From the NCBI GenBank assembly GCA_025766275.1, contig JAFKAC010000035.1:186001-250000 (forward strand): 64,000 bases of DNA. The letters are read 5' to 3'. Below, piece by piece: positions 5,201-51,308 of this stretch (the stretch's first letter is position 1; each line of letters starts with the position of its first letter). The DNA is from Lactarius indigo. Its lineage: Eukaryota > Basidiomycota > Agaricomycetes > Russulales > Russulaceae. The notes beneath the pieces are model-generated. The model had not been told where the DNA came from. It did no database searches and worked only from the letters and a program-made list of their open reading frames with translations. The position numbers and the translations under genes were made by a program.

Positions 5201-5910
5201 CAGTCGTGGATGTTACCGAAGACATGTTTGATGGGACTCCACTACATGCTGCGTTAAGGGGTGGACGTATTGATGTCGCGCGGTGGCTACTTGACCATGG
5301 CGCAGATGCAAATTCGCGGCAAAATAATCTTGAGACCCCAATTCATTTAGCTGCATATTATGGACACCTAGAGATTGTTCGGATGCTACTGGTGCACAAT
5401 GTACCTATCAACACTGCGGACGACCGAGGCCATACTCCATTGCACAATGCATCGAGACGTAGTCACGTGGAGATCGTGGTGCTACTACTCGAACGTGGCG
5501 CGGAAATCAGCGCACAAGATAAGGAATACTCGACGCCATTACATCTAGCATCGCGTTATGGGAACCTTGAGGCTACACACCTGCTGCTTGACCGTGGCGC
5601 GAACGCGGAGGCCAAGAAGAAGGACGGAAGGACCCCATTGCACGAGGCGTCGTCCCAAGGCAAAAGAGATACTGTAGGCCTGCTGCTCGACCACGGTGCA
5701 AACGCAAATGCCTCGGATAACGACGGATGGACCCCGTTGCACGTAGCGTCATCCAAAGGCGAAACAGAGATCGTGCGCTTGCTGCTCGACCGTGGTGCGA
5801 ATGCAGGTGCCAAGGACAACAAAGAAAAAACCCCATTTCATGTCACGTCAGGAAAGCGAATCATAGGGATGTTGATAGAGCATGGCAATCAATTAGATAG
5901 AGTACTATAG
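2222..5910 (+). CDS. NLR-A: Goodbye-NACHT-ankyrin receptor, 9 exons, about 1087 aa
   Basis: Exons: 2222-2509, 2566-2616, 2674-2869, 2915-3172, 3229-3288, 3345-3521, 3580-3604, 3655-4260, 4308-5910; all phases join. The N-terminus (about aa 1-180, with AIFCASLDTYKKKTKKDL) resembles the fungal STAND Goodbye domain. A heptad-rich linker follows (GVDDKVR, GVDDNVK, GVDDRVK). The NACHT NTPase has Walker A GKPGSGKS at aa 342-349, assembled from exons 6 and 7, Walker B IIIDALDE near aa 445 and ITSRPE near aa 484. About nine ankyrin repeats run from aa 795 to the end. Such proteins are signal-responsive NTPase switches; fungal members act in heterokaryon incompatibility and related cell-death responses. 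The ligand is unknown. The start is the first ATG of the conserved MSQTPP. This copy has the longest exon 4 (258 bp). Confidence 0.9.
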
Positions 5911-13300: not shown

Positions 13301-13949
13301 TCAGGGGGTGGACGTATCGATGTCGCGCGGTGGCTACTCGACCATGGCGCAGATGCAAATTCGCAGCAAAACAATCACTGGACTCCAATTCATTTAGCCG
13401 CAGTTTATGGACGCCTAGAGTTTGTTCAGATGCTACTGGGGTACAACGTACGCGTCAACACTGCGGACAGCCAAGGCCGTACTCCATTACACTGGGCATC
13501 AGAAGGTGGTCACGTGGAGATCGCGCGGCTACTACTTGAACATGGCGCAGAAATTAGCGCACAAGATAATGAACACTTTGACGGCATTACATCTAGCATC
13601 ACGTTATGGGACGCTCGAGGCTACACGTCTGCTGCTTGACCGTGGCGCGAACGCGGAGGCTAAGAAGAAGGACGGCAGGACCCCATTGCACGAGGCGTCG
13701 TCTCAAGGCAAAAGGGATGCTGTACGCCTGCTGCTCGACCACGGCGCAAACCTAAATGCCTCGGATAACGACGGATGGACCCCATTGCACGCAGCGTCAT
13801 CCGAAGGCAAAACAGAGATCATGCGCTTGCTGCTTGACCATGGCGCGAGTGCAGATGCCATGGACAACAAAGGAAAGACCCCATTCCAGGTGACATCAGG
13901 AAATGAAAAGGACGCGATCCTCCAGGTATTGATGGAGCACGGTGGATAG
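10368..13949 (+). pseudogene. NLR-B: receptor paralogue with a frameshift in the ankyrin region
   Basis: Exons 10368-10655, 10712-10762, 10819-11014, 11065-11217, 11274-11333, 11390-11566, 11625-11649, 11702-12307 and 12355 onward join in phase, and all NACHT motifs remain. Near 13577 one base is inserted relative to paralogues (GAACACTTTGACG against GAACACTCGACG), so the frame ends at 13639 after five ankyrin repeats, giving about 946 aa. The other frame continues through four more repeats to 13949. The product could be a shortened receptor rather than a dead gene. Exon 4 is the shortest form (153 bp). A copia element sits 23 bp past the ancestral stop. Sequencing error at one base is an alternative explanation. 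Confidence 0.8.
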
Positions 13950-27300: not shown

Positions 27301-28276
27301 TCAACATACCTGGACTCTACTACATGCTGCGTCGTTTGATGGACGTATCGATGTCGCGCGGTGGCTACTCGATCATGGCGCGGATGCGAATTCCCCGAAA
27401 GGCAATCATTGTACTCCAATTCAATTAGCCGCATGCACGGGACGCCTAGAAGTTGTTCAGATGCTACTGGAGCACAACGTACCCGTCAACACTGCGAACA
27501 GCCAAGGCGTTACTCCATTGCACCATGCATCAGATTATGGTCACGTGGAGATCGCGGGGCTACTACTCGAACATGGCGCGGAAATCAACGCACAAGATAG
27601 TATGGATTACTTGACGCCATTACATCTAGCATCACGTTATGGGAGGCTCGAGGCTGCACGTCTGCTGCTTGACCGTGGCGCGAACGTGGAGGCTAAGAAG
27701 AAGGACGGAAGGACACCATTGCACGAAATGTCGTGGTTCGGAAGCGAAACAGATATTGTACGCCTGCTGCTCGACCACGGTGCAAACCCAAATGCCGAGG
27801 ATAATGAAGGATGGACCCCGTTGCACGAGGCGTCATCCACAGGCAAGGCGGAGATTGCGCGCTTGCTGCTCGACCGTGGCGCGAACGTAAACTCCAAGAC
27901 GGAGGACGGAAGGACCCCATTGCACGACGCGTGGTTCAATCGCGAAACAGAGATCGCGCGCTTGCTGCTCGACCATGGCGCGAACGTAGACTCCAAGAAG
28001 GAGGATGGGAGGACCCCATTGCACGAGGCGTCGTACTATGGCCCAATAGAAATCGTGCAATTGCTGCTCGACCACCACGCGAACGTAAATGCCAACGACA
28101 AAGACGGGTGGACTCCATTGCACGTAGCGTCATCCAAAGGCGAAGCGGAGATCGTGCGCTTGTTGCTCAACCGTGGCGCGAGTGCAGATTCCAAGGACAA
28201 GGAAGGAAAAACCCCATTCCAGGTCGCGTCAAATAGGGCAATCAAACAGATGTTGACAGAGCATGGTGGGCAATAG
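24341..28276 (+). CDS. NLR-C: Goodbye-NACHT-ankyrin receptor, about 1166 aa
   Basis: Exons: 24341-24622, 24678-24728, 24786-24981, 25043-25237, 25288-25368, 25424-25600, 25659-25683, 25736-26341, 26389-28276; all phases join. Exon 1 is 6 bp shorter than in A (MSQTPPTSSSNLQ). Walker B reads IIMDALDE. Exon 4 is 195 bp and exon 5 is the long 81-bp form. The last exon encodes about twelve ankyrin repeats, three more than A, the extra units lying between the HEMSWFGSETDI repeat and the C-terminal cap. Exon 3 ends in C before a GTAAGT donor, unlike the A/GTGAGT of the others, which changes one residue at the junction. Confidence 0.9.
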
Positions 28277-30180: not shown

Positions 30181-30188
30181 GTACAGTA
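30181..30188. repeat. 8-bp target duplication GTACAGTA, left
   Basis: GTACAGTA immediately precedes the left inverted repeat and recurs exactly at 36493-36500. Confidence 0.95.
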
Positions 30189-30202
30189 CAAGGGGCTCGC
30201 GG
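30189..30202. repeat. Left terminal inverted repeat (14 bp)
   Basis: CAAGGGGCTCGCGG is the exact inverse of 36479-36492. The stop codon of the internal gene lies only 153 bp inside this end. Confidence 0.95.
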
Positions 30203-30354
30203 AAATGCAGTTAGATATAGGGGGTACAAAAATCTCATAAGGCCGATAGGGAAAGGGGGGTAGGTATTTACATAAGCGGGCGCCTATCCGAATATGGTAT
30301 CACATTCTCGCGCCTACTAAATATGGCAATCGGCTCGGTAATTCATTGCCGCCT

Positions 30355-33300
30355 TCACATACGCCTCCTTTTCAGCATGCCTGTGTCGCTCTGGCACACC
30401 TCGCAAGTCCAACTCTTGGGTGAGAATGAAAGCCCAACGCATGCAATATGATACTGGTATGGTTTAGTATCAGTGTATTGTGACTGGATGCATCGCTCAC
30501 CCATTTTGTTTCGCAGCCTGCAACTCTGCAGCAAACTACCTCACCACCGGCTGCCTGCCCCGCTGATGGTGCTGCTGAATTCCCACACAAGCACGCAGAA
30601 ACGTCGCACATATTGCGCAGTTTCCGTTTGCGTCCAAATGAGGACATTTGGGCGCCCCCAAGGAGACCCCCGCCCTCGTCTTCGGTCCCAGTCGGGTGTT
30701 TGGTCACGCTGGAGGTGTGGCACGTCGCAATGTCTGTGGGCAGTGACACTGGGACGCCGATGTTAGCAACTAAGAAGAGAGGATGTTTGTCAGCGTCAAG
30801 GGATGCAAATGGGAAGGGACGACTTACTAGGTGTGTGTTCACTTGTCTCTACTACGACATCTCTGACAGCCCCTGTCGCAGACTCGGACTTGTCTTCAAC
30901 GTCTCTCTCATTACCACCTTCCAACTCTCCCAGCCCATCCTCTCCATCTTCGGCGCCATCTGGCATCTCACTATCTGACCCTGGTCGTGCACTTCTTTCA
31001 ATCGACACGGCCTCTGATTCACCATCACTGCCAGACCACGCCTCATGCCCACTGGGGCCCTCTTCGATCGGATCTAGCTCGTCGTCGTGTATCATGTCAT
31101 CTTCGCGTGCAATAAAACTATAATTTCTCATGTGATTAGCAAGCTTTGGATATCAATCCAGGCACCACATACCCCGAAAGTCTACGGGAACTATGTGCCT
31201 CTGAAAGCTTCAGAGGAACCTTCTTCCTCCCTTTGCCACGTCGCTTGGGCTGCTTATGGCGGTTCTCCCAAATCTTAGCCATTGCATTGGCCTCCTCTGC
31301 AGTTATCTTCCAGAGGTCTTCGTGCTTTGTGGCATCAACGCCTTGGTGTCGAAGTTGGAAATGCGGTCGCATATTGTACCGCCAGACAGCTGGGGATCCA
31401 TCTGGGCAGTAGGGGCATCGGAGAGGGACATTTGAGCATGGAGATGATTCGGAAGATACCATAGCAGTGGAATATGAGAAGTTAGTCGCATTAGGGCATG
31501 GTACAATGCCACCATAATTGAGTGTCCACTGATAGTTCCGTCCGGAGCGTTTCGTGAGATAGATGGCGCATGTATTAGCAGGTCGGAGGCAGAGCCCGCA
31601 TGGCTCCCCTGACTTGTCAAGGGTTGGATCGTGTAATACATGACTCCCGATGTGTGCAAGTACACGCTGACCATTGACTGCGTCGAGTTGGACTGGAGGC
31701 TCACATGCTGGGCACTCATGCGAGCTGAGCTCCCGCACCTCGTAAATAGTCTCTGCAACGAAGCAGGCCATCCCTGAGAAGCGTCAACTAAAGCCTGATG
31801 ACCTAGTAACGAAGATGAGCACTTACCCGATCCTTCACGGTAAGGAAAGCGGTCAGTTGGCTCCGTTTGTGGAATAAGTTTGAGCTGGGGCTTAGACAGT
31901 CGGTCGCGAAGGCTGGATGCAAACGCAATAAGTGTGGATGTTTCGAATAGGTATGCGGGCATGTGCGAGGACGGCATGGCTAGGGCGGGATTAATGGGCT
32001 GAACGAGATTTCCTGGGACTTTGAATCTCATGGGTAGAAGACTTTGTGCTTGCCAGTCGTACTTTCCAGCACGTGTATTATTGTTGGGATTGTTGTCGCC
32101 AGGGATAGTGCAGACTAGACTGTAAGCCTGGTACGTGATACGAATGCTGTCCTCGAGAAGGGCATCGAGACGCAGATGGTCTACGGCTTTTGATCCGATA
32201 TGTATACCAATAACTTCGCCGATACAAAGAAATATGTTGTCTTCGCATGAGAGGAGTGTGGCTACGGGGTTGTCTACCATAAGGATGTCGCAGAGTTCCT
32301 CAGAGGAGTCGTCCACAAGAGTCTCGGGCTCTGGCTGCACATAGCGTGCCTGCTGCTGGACCCTACGAAGCCGATCTGTTGAGCTTGTCGAATTACTATA
32401 TTTGAACAATAAGGACAATGCCCGAGACTTCTTTAGTGTGCTAGTGCCATCGTCGACCATAACAACATTGCTGAACGCATGTTGTTCGGGATCCCAGTCC
32501 AGAGAAGTCGCGGCATCTTCGAGTTCACGTACCCCGTCACCAGTAGCGGAAACATCTGTGTGGTCCAACATGACAGCCCCTGGTACAAGGCCATGAAGGA
32601 CGTCGTCATGCGATAACTCCAAGTCCTCCATTTCATCGCCGGGGGTGGATGTGTGCACAAGGAGGGTACCAAAGGGTGCAAGTATTGTGGCGTTGGGGAT
32701 TGCCATAACAGCACTGAGGACGTTGCAGACAAATGGGTAGTCCGCTTCAAGCTTGCGCCGACCCCGGATCCACACAGTGGGAGGTGTGACGGAGTTGAGG
32801 GCTTGAGACGCCCTCCATGAGCGTGGAGAGATGTGATCTGCGGAATCAGGAATTGTGGATGAATCCTGAGACACGCACGGAAGATGCAGACGCCGTGGTG
32901 CCTTATCCCATTCGGGGTGCAAAGCTAAAATGTTCATAGACTCCATGGTTCCAGTTAGACGGGAGCCAAGTTGGTAATTGTCGACGTTGGCATCGTTGCC
33001 CACAATAGTCCGTAGGCAGCCGAAGAGATTTTCAAGGCGATCAGTGCCAAGAAGTATAATATTAAAGTCACTGTTAGGGGTATCTATCTTAGCCTTCGCC
33101 ACACAAAAGAAAACGTTTTTGACCATAATCATAAGGTCAATATAGAGCGCAGTGGGGACGAAGTTGCTGCATGCGTTGTCGTGAGCGTAGAGAGCCAAGG
33201 CTAGGTGTGCCGCGTAGCTCAGGTATTCGAGTTGGTCCTCAATGGACAAGTCAACGCAGATATATGGCATAAGGAAGTGATAACACATAGAGCCGAATAC

Positions 33301-36288
33301 GCGAAGCGAGTCTCGGGCTTTGATACGACCAGGAGTTCCAGATGTGAGCCGAGGAAGTCTCCATATGTCCTGGAGCAGAGTGAACGCGAGCAAGACATCT
33401 TGTTTGTCATTTGGATTGAGTACTGCACGGACGTGTCGAGACTTGTGACCGGCTTCGAGAAGGTGGCTCTGAATAAGCATAGGAGTAATCCATGTACCAT
33501 GTACCAGAAGGCCCTTCTCGCGCAAGAGGGCGTTGCGCGGTCGCTTCGCGGCGACGTGCTTCCAGTCCTTGTCGCAGGTAACGTCATCTTCGCCAACATG
33601 TAGATCGAGGAGCGCACACCCAGACAGCCAGGGATAGATAGGGGAGGAGGAAGAAAGCCAGCGCTTGAACGTAAGCTGAACTAACGCCTTGCCCCGCTTG
33701 GCCTCGCCGTCTGAAGCGATGGAGACAACCCGAGCATTCCAAAGTGCCTTGGTGTCTTTGATTGCGTTAAGTGCCGTCTGGATGAGACTCGCATGGTCTT
33801 CTGCAGCCTCTTTCTTACAGCTACCGGAGACGAGGAAAGGCTTTGCACTATAAAGTTTAGGATTGCTACACAGTATACCGATTGCGCCAATCGTGGCCTG
33901 TTGGAGAGCAAGTCATGCGACTTAGTGTCGATCGATCTGGGCAAATCCGTGGGAGAATTGGATAATACTCACTTCGTGCGCCAGATGCACATCACCACTC
34001 TCCATGTCCTGGAACAACAGCTCCGCATCTGCGATGCTGTTGAAGTCCATACACCTTCCTTTCGTATGCTCTCGACACCACCCCAGTATCTGATTTGTCT
34101 GATCACACCATCGTGGGCGCATCTCTTGCGCAATCTCGTCGATCATCAAGACGATATGATATCTTCGCTGCTCTGTCAATACTGGCAACAAACTGTCAAA
34201 TGCGGCCTTCAAATTGCTTTCAAGGTCCCTCAAAATCGGGTAGGATGAGGAGCATATGAGGGGTGGAATCATGGTGCGGCGACGGACGGTGGAGGGGGCG
34301 GGGATGCCAAACATACGGTGCGCAATCTCTGCCACTCGCTGACCCCCTAGACGCAGGAATAGGAGGGCTTGTAAGTCTTCATCCTCGCTGAAGCCTTTCG
34401 GATGATAGATGCCACGTCCGGCCTTTCTTACTAGGTCCAGAATTGCGGCGACACTCATGTGCCGGTCCATGGCCACACGAACGACGCGGTCCAGCCGGGG
34501 TATCTTCCCGCTCGACATCGCAAGAAGTACTTGTCGGTGCATAGTGATCGCGCCTTCACGCCCGATGAGTTTCCTTGCGTCGTTCGTACGCCGAAGGCGG
34601 TATAAATCGATAGTGCGCTCCTTTTTGCGTGCAATCTCTGCCAAGCTCAGCAACCCGTGGTACTTGAAAGGTGTGTACTCGTTGACTCCCTCCTCTACGC
34701 GGGCTAAAATCTTTCTGAATTTCATGTTAGATAGCAACGCTTGGCATGGCTTGCATAGACCATGTTCGTCAAGTCCTCGGTTTTCGCATTTGCGCGCGCG
34801 TAGCAGGAGGGTCCCACAGCGGGAGGAGAACTCCCACGGCATATGCTCCTCGATATGGAGAAGGAAAGGGTACGCGCCAATGCCGGTCTTGCCGGATGGT
34901 GCACTAACGATGTGCTGCTTGCACCGCGCCCTCTGAGATGGGCCATGTTGCTCGGTCACACTCTCCTCAGGTGCACCGGCCAAGATAGTCGACGACAACG
35001 AAGTGTCATTTGTGGGTCGAAGTGTAGGGACAATTTCCGTAGACAAAGGGAATCCCCCAATATATTCGATGTCACTGTCGTCGTCGACTATGTTGGGGGT
35101 GAGCCCTCCCTGCGAACGATTGTCCTCGACAGGTGAGGCATCGGGCAAGGCAGGGTCAATCGTCTGCCCCCCTTGGTGCCTTCCACGTCTGGTAAGCAAG
35201 ATGTCTATTCCAATATGGCTGTCGAATACTCACTGTTTCGTGAGTTCAATCGCTTTCAAAAGTCTTCCTATTTTTCCTTCAAGCAGGTCCCCGGTGACGC
35301 CATGATCAACAACAAACCCGTGGATGTACTGGGCTAAACCCCTGACGCCCAAGGGTCCACGCCGCACGCGCTGTGCAACATCCTCAATACCGATCCCGTA
35401 CCCCAGCAACCAGTTCAGCATGTGGTCAAGATACTCCCAGGCTTCACTTGAATCTTCGGGGCCTCCCGCCAATACGACGCGAGCAATATCGTCACCTTCT
35501 TCTGCCTCAGGAATATGCGAAGGCAGCTCTTGTGCTGCACGGGTGATGCTGTTCAACAGCACCAATGCATGTGCGTCGGGGGGTGCTGACTTGGAAGTTA
35601 CGTCGTCTGCTGACACTGACCCCACCCTAGGTTCGTGTGGCGGACCTGATGTTGGAAAAGAGGACACAAGGGGAGATGTGGGGAGGGGACTAGACTGGGC
35701 CAATTGGTTTGCGCTCACGCCAAGGGTCGCATGCACAGGAGCTACTGTCGACACCGATGCGACTTCGGATGGTGCCTCAGATACAAGTCCATTTTGCTTA
35801 CCGTCTCGCACCTGGTTTGGCCCACCTTCTGGTCCATTGCGCATAGTTTTTGTCAAGGTTTTCGTGAAGTATGAATGGAGTGTGTTTATTCCACTCCCAG
35901 TTTGGCTATCTTGGGGCTTCAACTCGCCCTTTTTCGCGGCCTTCAGACATCCAGGTGAACCCCTATGTTGCATGAAGTTCTTGCGACCGCCGTAACCAAC
36001 TCGAACTTTTATGTGACATATGTCGCATGTGTAAGTTCCGTCTTTGTCTGGGGGCAGTACAGGGGGCACACCCGGAGGCAAATCGCTTGGCCCCATTGTA
36101 TGCGTATTGTCGAGAGTTGAGAAAACTGTCAGATTAAGTGAGCACTTAGAACTCGATTTGGGAGGTTCCATAAGAGTCAAAGATAAGGGTTTCCAAGGTT
36201 TCTGATGCTTAGGGAAATAGGAGGCACGCGCAAAAAAAACTTCCGTGTTCCTTTTCAGTCGAGTTTTGAAGAGTGGTGGCTTCACCAA
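30355..36288 (-). CDS. Transposase-like protein with BED-like and PHD fingers, 7 exons, about 1869 aa
   Basis: Exons (minus): 36288-35234, 35188-33973, 33897-31827, 31773-31173, 31126-30828, 30769-30501, 30453-30355; GT-AG introns of 45-75 bp join in phase. A BED-like finger (C88, C91, H108, C114) may bind transposon ends. The RNase H-like core has candidate acids D702 (LMIDEI), D820 (ASDGE) and D1043/E1046 (TDRLENLFG). KHVAAKRPRN and VHGTWIT between them recall P-element/THAP9-type transposases; I hold that assignment loosely. A second finger follows (C1567, C1570, H1585, H1590), then an acidic tail and a C-terminal PHD finger (aa 1802-1858, CLCG...CCRVAGC...WYHIAC...WTCEVC), which could read histone tails. 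Later ATGs at 36171 and 36096 are alternative starts. Confidence 0.85.
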
Positions 36289-36478
36289 GGCCTTACTGTT
36301 ACTCTGAAAATCCTGTATTCTAAGCCCAAGAGTGTATAAGCGTGTTCTTCACGTTCGCTACAACAATGGTCAGAGTTAGCGCCCTATAGGCGCCCTATAG
36401 GCGCTGGTGCACAAAAATCTGCTAAGGGTCGACTATACCCCCCCTATCCCCCTAACCCGGGTATGGGCGCTTAAAATC

Positions 36479-36492
36479 CCGCGAGCCCCTTG
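36479..36492. repeat. Right terminal inverted repeat (14 bp)
   Basis: CCGCGAGCCCCTTG is the inverse of the left end, followed by GTACAGTA at 36493-36500. Confidence 0.95.
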
Positions 36493-36500
36493 GTACAGTA

Positions 36501-44200: not shown

Positions 44201-44825
44201 TGTCGCGCAATGGTTACTCGACCATGGTGCAGATGCGAATTCGCGGGAAATTGATCTCCAGACTCCAATTCATTTTGCCGCAAAAGGACACTTAGATATT
44301 GTTCGGATGTTACTGGGGCACAACGTACGCATCAACACTGCAGACAACCGAGGCCTTACTCCATTGCACGACGCATCGAAAGGTGGTCACGTGGAGATCG
44401 CGGGGCTACTACTTGAACATGGCGCGGAAATCAGCGCACAAGATAACGAACACTCGACGCCATTACACCTAGCATTACGTTATGGGAGGCTCGAGGCTGC
44501 ACGTCTGCTACTTGACCATGGCGCGAACGCGGAGGCCAAGAAGAAGGACGGAAGGACTCCATTGCACGAGGCGTCATCCCAAGGGGAAAGAGATACTGTG
44601 CGCCTGCTGCTCGACCACGGCGCAAATGCAAATGCCTCGGATAACGACGGATGGACCCCGTTGCACGTAGCGTCATCCAAAGGCAAAACAGATATCGTGC
44701 GCTTGCTACTCGACTACAGCGCGAGTGCGGATGCCAAGGACAATGAGGGAAAAACCCCATTCCAGGTCGCGTCAGGAAATGAAAAGGACGCGATCCTACA
44801 GTCATTGATGGAGCACGGTGGATAA
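41226..44825 (+). CDS. NLR-D: Goodbye-NACHT-ankyrin receptor, about 1055 aa
   Basis: Exons: 41226-41513, 41570-41620, 41677-41872, 41923-42075, 42132-42212, 42270-42446, 42505-42529, 42582-43187, 43235-44825; all phases join. Exon 4 is the minimal 153-bp form but exon 5 is the long form. The exon 5-6 junction yields W where other copies have R, because exon 5 ends in T rather than C. About nine ankyrin repeats end at SGNEKDAILQSLMEHGG, nearly the same cap as NLR-B, supporting a closer B-D relationship. It lies 562 bp after the end of FB3. Confidence 0.9.
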
Positions 44826-50100: not shown

Positions 50101-51308
50101 ATGTTATCGACGATCGATCAAATCTGACTCTACTACATGCTGCGTCGTATGCTGCACGTATCGATGTCGCGTGGTGGCTACTCGACCATGGCGCAGATGC
50201 GAATTCCCGGAATATTGGTCATCTGACTCCAATTCATTTCGCCGCATCTGGTGGATGCCTAGAGGTTGTTCGGATGCTACTGGGGCACAACGTACCCGTC
50301 AATACTGCGGACAGCCAAGGCCTTACACCATTGCACCACGCATCAGATCGCGGTCACGTGGAGATCGCGGAGCTATTACTCGAACATGGCGCGGAAATCA
50401 ACGCACAAGATAAAGAATGCTCGACACCATTACATCTAGCATCACGTTATGGGAAGCTCGAGGCTGCACGTCTGCTGCTTGACCGTGGCGCGAACGCGGA
50501 AGCTAAGAAGAAGGACGGAAGGACTCCATTGCACGAGGTGTCAAGATTCCGACGCGAAGAAGATATTGTACGCCTGCTGCTCGACCACGGTGCAAACGCA
50601 AATACATCAGATAGCGAAGGATGGACCCCGTTGCACTTAGCGTCACTCAAAGGCAGCGCAGAGATCGTACGCTTGCTGCTCGACCGTGGCGCGAACGCAG
50701 ACCCGAAGGAGGAGGATGGAATGACCCCATTGCACGAGGCGTCGTCCAATTGCGAAACAGAGATCGTGCGCTTGTTGCTCGACCGTGGCGCGAACGCTGA
50801 CTCCAAGAATGAGGACGGGAGGACTCCATTACACGACGCGTCGTACTATGGCCCAATAGAAATGGTGCAATTGCTGCTCGACCACGACGCGAACCCAAAT
50901 GCTGAAGACAAACGCGGGTGGACTCCGTTGCACGTAGCGTCATCCGAACGCAAAACAAAGATCGTACGCTTGTTGCTCAACCGTGGCGCGAGTGCAGATG
51001 CCAAGGACAATGAAGGAAAAACCCCATTGCACGAGGCGTCGTCCTATGGCACAATAGAAATTGTGCAATTGCTACTCGACCACGACGCAAACGTAAATGC
51101 CAAAGACAAATACGGGAGGACTCCGTTGCACGTAGCATCATTCAGCGGTAAAGCAGAGACTGTGTGTTTGCTACTCGACCGTGGCGCGAGTGTAGATGCC
51201 AAGGATAAGCAAGGAGAGACCCCATTCCAGGTGGCATCAGGAAATGGACATGGCGCGATCCTACAGGTATTGATGGAGCACGGTGAACGAATAGAACGTG
51301 TACTATAG
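47151..51308 (+). CDS. NLR-E: Goodbye-NACHT-ankyrin receptor with about 14 ankyrin repeats, about 1242 aa
   Basis: Exons: 47151-47438, 47495-47545, 47602-47797, 47846-48061, 48118-48177, 48234-48410, 48469-48493, 48546-49151, 49199-51308; all phases join. It is the longest receptor here. Walker B reads IVIDALDE. Exon 4 is 216 bp, exon 5 the short form. The last exon encodes about fourteen ankyrin repeats; two pairs near 50818-51015 and 51016-51213 look like a 198-bp, two-repeat duplication. The protein ends MEHGERIERVL, like NLR-A (DRVL), while B and D end at MEHGG. Donor of intron 1 is GTAAGT and of intron 5 GTCCGT, slightly different from paralogues but canonical. Confidence 0.9.

Follow-up and report, generated by a model that had tools for sequence, protein, structure and literature searches.

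Background

Among the closest described systems are the Drosophila P transposase (PDB 6p5a, 6pe2) and animal THAP9, which have an RNase H core, a mainly helical insertion, a DDE layout and a [C/D](2)H string, with 8-bp target site duplications and short subterminal repeats near both ends (P element anatomy from PMC7776569). The same features were found in an element within a 64,000-nucleotide stretch of the Lactarius indigo genome (GenBank GCA_025766275.1, contig JAFKAC010000035.1, positions 186,001 to 250,000; here called the window, on contig C221). The mushroom proteins differ in showing no THAP pattern and, in the 40 relatives scanned with Pfam, no match to a GTP-binding-domain model; the window protein is about 1,800 residues long and carries a C-terminal barrel, a Cys/His-rich region and a PHD finger. 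The element is very probably a complete, recently mobile and probably autonomous transposon of the P superfamily, from a fungal lineage in which no THAP domain was seen and which carries modules of the chromatin-reader type.

Within Basidiomycota, P elements of rust fungi were reported in 2011, when they were new to Dikarya; P-1_PSt, P-1_MLP and P-2_MLP are described as likewise of the P superfamily with 8-bp duplications, but their hosts are rusts and that of the window element is an agaricomycete (PMC3164196). RAG1-RAG2 and TransibVDJ also combine an RNase H recombinase with a PHD finger; in RAG1-RAG2 the finger lies on the second protein, RAG2, whereas in the mushroom element it lies within the transposase (PMC4411706), and the mushroom core fold is nearer to P than to Transib. 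Rehavkus is a DNA transposon with a PHD finger in its transposase but has 9-bp duplications, is an outgroup to Mutator-like elements and is found in arthropods and annelids (PMC6446971). The cysteine-rich domain of PiggyMac, a transposase-derived protein, is a zinc domain that contacts the H3 tail, but PiggyMac is a domesticated member of the PiggyBac family, the domain is not a canonical PHD and its H3 contact is described as weak and methylation-independent (PMC8086355). P elements in fungi (rusts) and PHD fingers in transposases (Rehavkus) or in a partner protein (RAG2) are thus already known. Searches of the open-licence literature, judged mostly by titles and abstract beginnings, brought up no recognised P element of Agaricomycetes and no recognised P transposase with a PHD finger.

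Element boundaries and copies

The element comprises 6,304 bp (30189–36492, gene on the minus strand) and is delimited by paired ends and a duplication. The 14-bp terminal inverted repeat CAAGGGGCTCGCGG was an exact match at both tips, on the plus strand at 30189–30202 (3' end of the gene strand) and on the minus strand at 36479–36492 (5' end), and was flanked by the left and right copies of the 8-bp target site duplication GTACAGTA at 30181–30188 and 36493–36500. An initial annotation made from the sequence had reported these perfect repeats and this duplication, both of which were exact at the ends it gave, and had called the locus a complete DNA transposon, a description that is borne out. 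With two mismatches or fewer allowed, CAAGGGGCTCGCGG was matched five times in the window (two exact) against 0.57 expected by chance. Genome-wide (90.3 Mb, 291 contigs), the exact 14-mer occurred 23 times and the reversed control 14-mer 0 times.

The survey for other copies with the same ends and 8-bp duplications, suggested in the initial annotation, yielded 24 copies, giving 13 independent sites with the window element included. They comprised a second full copy on contig C201 and 23 shorter derivatives, four of them about 1.2 kb long and the other nineteen about 0.94 kb. Copies were chosen for having both ends, and one-ended matches were left out, as were nine lone-end loci (L048–L056) that had an exact end with neither a second end nor a transposase match in the stretch fetched; copy numbers are lower bounds. 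Seven or eight of the eight duplication letters agreed in 24/24 fetched copies, and each of the 13 sites showed 8/8 in the copy printed, while random positions in the same loci reached at least 7/8 in 31 of 46,509 draws. Eleven of the 0.94-kb copies (L032, L035–L037, L041–L047) had an identical flank and were counted as one site, so the small element had evidently multiplied inside another repeat. No ends, defined as an exact 8-bp duplication with at least 11 of 14 matching tip letters, were found at five other, related loci, L038, L039, L040, L057 and L058.

Between the second full copy and the window element there were 19 substitutions and a single 11-bp indel, the second copy having one unit fewer of an 11-bp tandem repeat at 36379–36404; both copies had an open frame, with nine amino-acid differences between them. 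The substitutions were transitions in 19/19 cases and lay at CpG in 17/19, a pattern that would be expected from cytosine methylation. Recent mobility of the element is likely. When the genome was searched at the protein level, 40 matches to exons came up over 14 contigs, some with internal stop codons, and a relative on contig C282 (37% identical) also had an 8-bp target site duplication. Read on the gene strand, the duplications at the 13 sites leaned towards G at position 1 (8/13), A at 6 (9/13) and C at 8 (9/13), which in this small sample could reflect an asymmetric target preference.

Inside the tips, the subterminal 10-mer GGGCGCCTAT was present near both ends of the window copy in the same inward orientation, 90–99 and 98–107 bp from the tip, where a shared 10-mer arose by chance in 20 of 2,000 shuffled end pairs. 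One occurrence lies at 30278–30287 on the plus strand; at the other end, the tandem repeat at 36379–36404 (minus strand) contains two copies of the core GCGCCTAT. A core of the form GC[G/A]CCTAT was present at both ends in 24/24 other copies; the full 10-mer was found in these at the 5' end in none and at the 3' end in four, so that only the window copy has it at both ends. Both places are candidate transposase-binding sites, to judge from the motif; P elements, too, are described as having internal sites to which the transposase binds, along with inverted repeats in subterminal position (PMC7776569). Close to each tip is a run of G (36430–36460 and 30218–30262) that was kept in 12 aligned copies; a four-stranded G structure is conceivable there.

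Catalytic core and superfamily assignment

In the predicted model of a relative, P0007, an RNase H core was seen with an Asp in beta-1, an Asp at beta-4 and, beyond the insertion, a Glu in the helix that follows; of these, D399 and E625 were invariant and D281 was present in at least 90% of 78 relatives. The corresponding residues of the window protein are D638 in beta-1 (34138–34140, minus strand, as are all gene features below), equivalent to D230 of P transposase, D756 directly after beta-4 (33709–33711), equivalent to D303, and D979-R-L-E982 (33031–33042), equivalent to D528/E531, the catalytic Glu here lying in the helix that follows the insertion domain. The initial annotation had proposed an RNase H-like core, which the DDE layout and the P-type fold of the model sustain, and had placed acidic candidates at these positions correctly, with numbers that were 64 too high. 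Just after beta-5 lies D804-W-K-H807 (33556–33567); the equivalent D447 and H450 of P0007 were invariant in 40 relatives and sit just after strand 443–446. A [C/D](2)H motif in this place is given as a P signature (PMC8230255).

By fold comparison the core was closest to the P element transposase. Pfam scans covered 40 of the 120 relatives listed, plus eight others: two P-element RNase H models were matched by 22/40 and 6/40 at E <=10 (best 5.8e-5 and 0.068) and a P-element RNase H match was obtained in 1/8 of the others at E <=0.1, and the window protein itself gave no such match at E <=1. Against solved structures, a single-sequence search with exon 3 alone gave a best E of 1.5, and a profile of the full family picked out Pho23, a relative of the ING proteins, at 1.5e-4 and nothing else. 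Of the GTP-binding residues of the insertion domain, the one that could be placed, D622 of P0007 (equivalent to D528), was present in at least 90% of relatives; no GTP-binding-domain Pfam model was among the hits of the 40 relatives. By fold, signature string and family-level Pfam hits, membership of the P superfamily is well supported and very likely. The same three lines uphold the resemblance to P and THAP9 proteins noted in the initial annotation, and replace its statement that no named superfamily could be assigned; it had regarded a match to a classified superfamily as counting against its reading, and this is such a match.

Gene structure

The gene has seven exons and six GT-AG introns of 45–75 bp, and the joined frame has no stop, in line with the gene first proposed. 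Exon 1 (35234–36096) begins at the start codon taken at 36096; exon 2 (33973–35188) encodes D638; exon 3 (31827–33897) encodes D756, D804-x2-H807, the insertion domain, D979/E982 and the beta-barrel; exon 4 (31173–31773) encodes a conserved Cys/His-rich region and exon 5 (30828–31117) an acidic linker. Exon 6 (30501–30769) encodes the first part of the PHD finger, C1740 to W1770, beginning at 30593, and exon 7 (30355–30453) the remainder, Y1771 to C1790, ending at 30394, and the stop. The WYHIAC joint across exons 6 and 7 was as annotated, and in the C282 relative the PHD-coding stretch was broken directly after the Trp preceding [Y/F]H, the same place, so the splice is supported by conservation.

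From the ATG at 36096 the protein has 1,802 residues, and from the sole upstream in-frame ATG 1,827, in place of the roughly 1869 first estimated. The start is putative, since public models begin at differing residues: the alignment of P0002 begins at the same residue 1, that of P0003 at 29 and that of P0001 at 85. P0001, a protein recorded under Lactarius indigo, was the best protein match, with 100% identity over residues 550–1015 and 96% over residues 85–1802 in one gapped alignment.

Zinc fingers and barrel

The N-terminal finger is a C2HC zinc finger, C24-x2-C27-x16-H44-x5-C50 (35947–36027). The initial annotation had described it as a BED-like C2HC finger; the C2HC part stands, and BED was rejected as an established identity, as searches gave no consistent family (zf-BED in 1/18 relatives, E 0.056; another finger model in 5/18, best 1.8e-5). 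The THAP pattern, C-x2,4-C-x35,53-C-x2-H, was found in 0/85 relatives of at least 1,200 residues, some of which have late starts. THAP is reported as animal-only (PMC7776569), and so does not define the P superfamily.

That the protein carries a C-terminal PHD finger, as first annotated, is well supported by its C4HC3 zinc ligands, its fold and its ING-class profile, the closest solved relatives being ING histone readers. From 28 PHD segments in 27 of 180 proteins, 20 were aligned; P0005, P0012 and P0124 were left out as complete near-duplicates, and P0021, P0027, P0031, P0041 and P0089 for lacking some ligands. All eight zinc ligands and the cage Trp were kept in 20/20. Among the 58 public models of at least 1,400 residues (of the 120), the full PHD motif was found in 14 and its core in 19; P0014 and P0019 stop short inside the PHD, so missing exons are likely in some public gene models, and some relatives may truly have lost the finger. 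A Mycena relative, P0081, has two PHD fingers. The beta-barrel, about residues 1230–1345 (31942–32289), is BAH/tudor/SAWADEE-like, its best fold matches including histone-binding domains of these three kinds, all weak.

Distribution among fungi

At least 188 protein relatives were found at E <0.001 (best 8,000 candidates scored). Of the 120 listed, 114 were named and represent 31 genera, which we take to be Agaricomycetes; taxonomy was checked for four species, in Russulales, Atheliales, Boletales and Agaricales, and L. indigo itself belongs to Agaricomycetes, Russulales. In the L. indigo genome, L057 (contig C248) and L058 (contig C7) are derivatives of a related family that keep the N-terminal and PHD regions and have no catalytic core, reminiscent of truncated P repressors; the finger of L057 is part of a 339-codon frame that runs from stop to stop, and its PHD has decayed.

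Elsewhere in the window, arrays of 99-bp units were seen at 5580–5820, 13625–13885, 27663–28218, 44505–44774 and 50473–51226. The array at 27665–28216 encodes ankyrin repeats (Pfam Ank, 3.1e-54), and the units of the other arrays resemble it.

Proposed mechanism and alternative explanations

In the proposed mechanism, the transposase would use its N-terminal C2HC finger, together with the helices that precede the core, to bind subterminal sites near both ends, for which GCGCCTAT is the candidate. The P-type RNase H core (D638, D756, E982), as its fold and conserved residues suggest, would then cut the ends and join the 3' ends to the target. Joining takes place with an 8-bp stagger, which leaves the duplications observed, and the shorter derivatives, whose ends are the same, have spread, presumably moved in trans. 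Finally, the PHD finger and the BAH/tudor-like barrel may tether the transposase to nucleosomes and influence where it inserts.

The identity of the element was weighed against three other explanations. A new superfamily might be suggested by the want of a sequence-level Pfam transposase match in the window protein and by its great length and extra modules; it is very unlikely and was rejected, as the fold places the core with P, and so do the insertion domain, the signature string, the length of the duplication and the Pfam hits at family level. Still less probable is another superfamily with 8-bp duplications. Elements of hAT make such duplications and have ends that also begin CA; their marks are an nTnnnnAn duplication, seen here in 1/13 sites, and a hAT dimerisation domain, absent from the Pfam hits of the window protein and the 40 relatives, and the fold speaks against hAT too. 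Zisupton likewise makes 8-bp duplications (PMC12730594), but Kyakuja-Dileera-Zisupton (KDZ) was rejected because no KDZ transposase model was among the same Pfam hits; the KDZ-associated cysteine cluster was matched by 1/18 N-terminal fingers (E 0.14). Domestication of a transposase as a host gene would suit a large protein with reader-like modules, but the intact ends and duplication, the second copy, almost identical yet differently flanked, and the spread derivatives make this the most improbable of the three.

For the C-terminal modules the alternatives are nearer. ING-type readers of H3K4me3 have an aromatic cage (Tyr and Trp) and an H3R2-binding Asp. The family PHDs differ from those of ING proteins in having no aromatic residue before the first Cys (0/20) and no acidic residue after the third Cys (0/20), which weighs against histone reading, and full ING-type H3K4me3 reading was rejected on these two features although the cage Trp was kept. 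That the PHD and barrel are structural or protein-protein modules, serving dimerisation or contact with a nuclear factor and not target choice, is accordingly quite possible, if short of probable: two of the three ING histone-contact features are missing throughout, and the PHD counts among the long public models suggest that the finger is perhaps dispensable in some. Against this explanation stand the conserved cage Trp and zinc ligands, the ING readers as closest solved relatives and the histone-binding domains among the barrel matches. That chromatin reading guides the choice of target, as the initial annotation had suggested for histone marks, is a reasonable hypothesis which, on such mixed residue evidence, is somewhat less likely than not. 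The fullest version, in which one polypeptide unites a RAG1-RAG2-like DDE recombinase with a two-part nucleosome reader (the BAH-like barrel plus an ING-class PHD in modified form) and would direct insertions with an 8-bp stagger to certain kinds of chromatin, perhaps with no need of the GTP cofactor that animal P elements use, is rather unlikely.

Significance

P elements are the textbook transposon of animals. With at least 188 relatives, the mushroom lineage shows that the P core can be accompanied by quite different domains for contact with DNA and chromatin. Since the transposase carries the reader-type finger within its own chain and the element appears to have been mobile recently, histone-guided site choice could be tested by mutating a single domain, and the element is a good case for asking whether cut-and-paste transposases pick their sites by reading histones.
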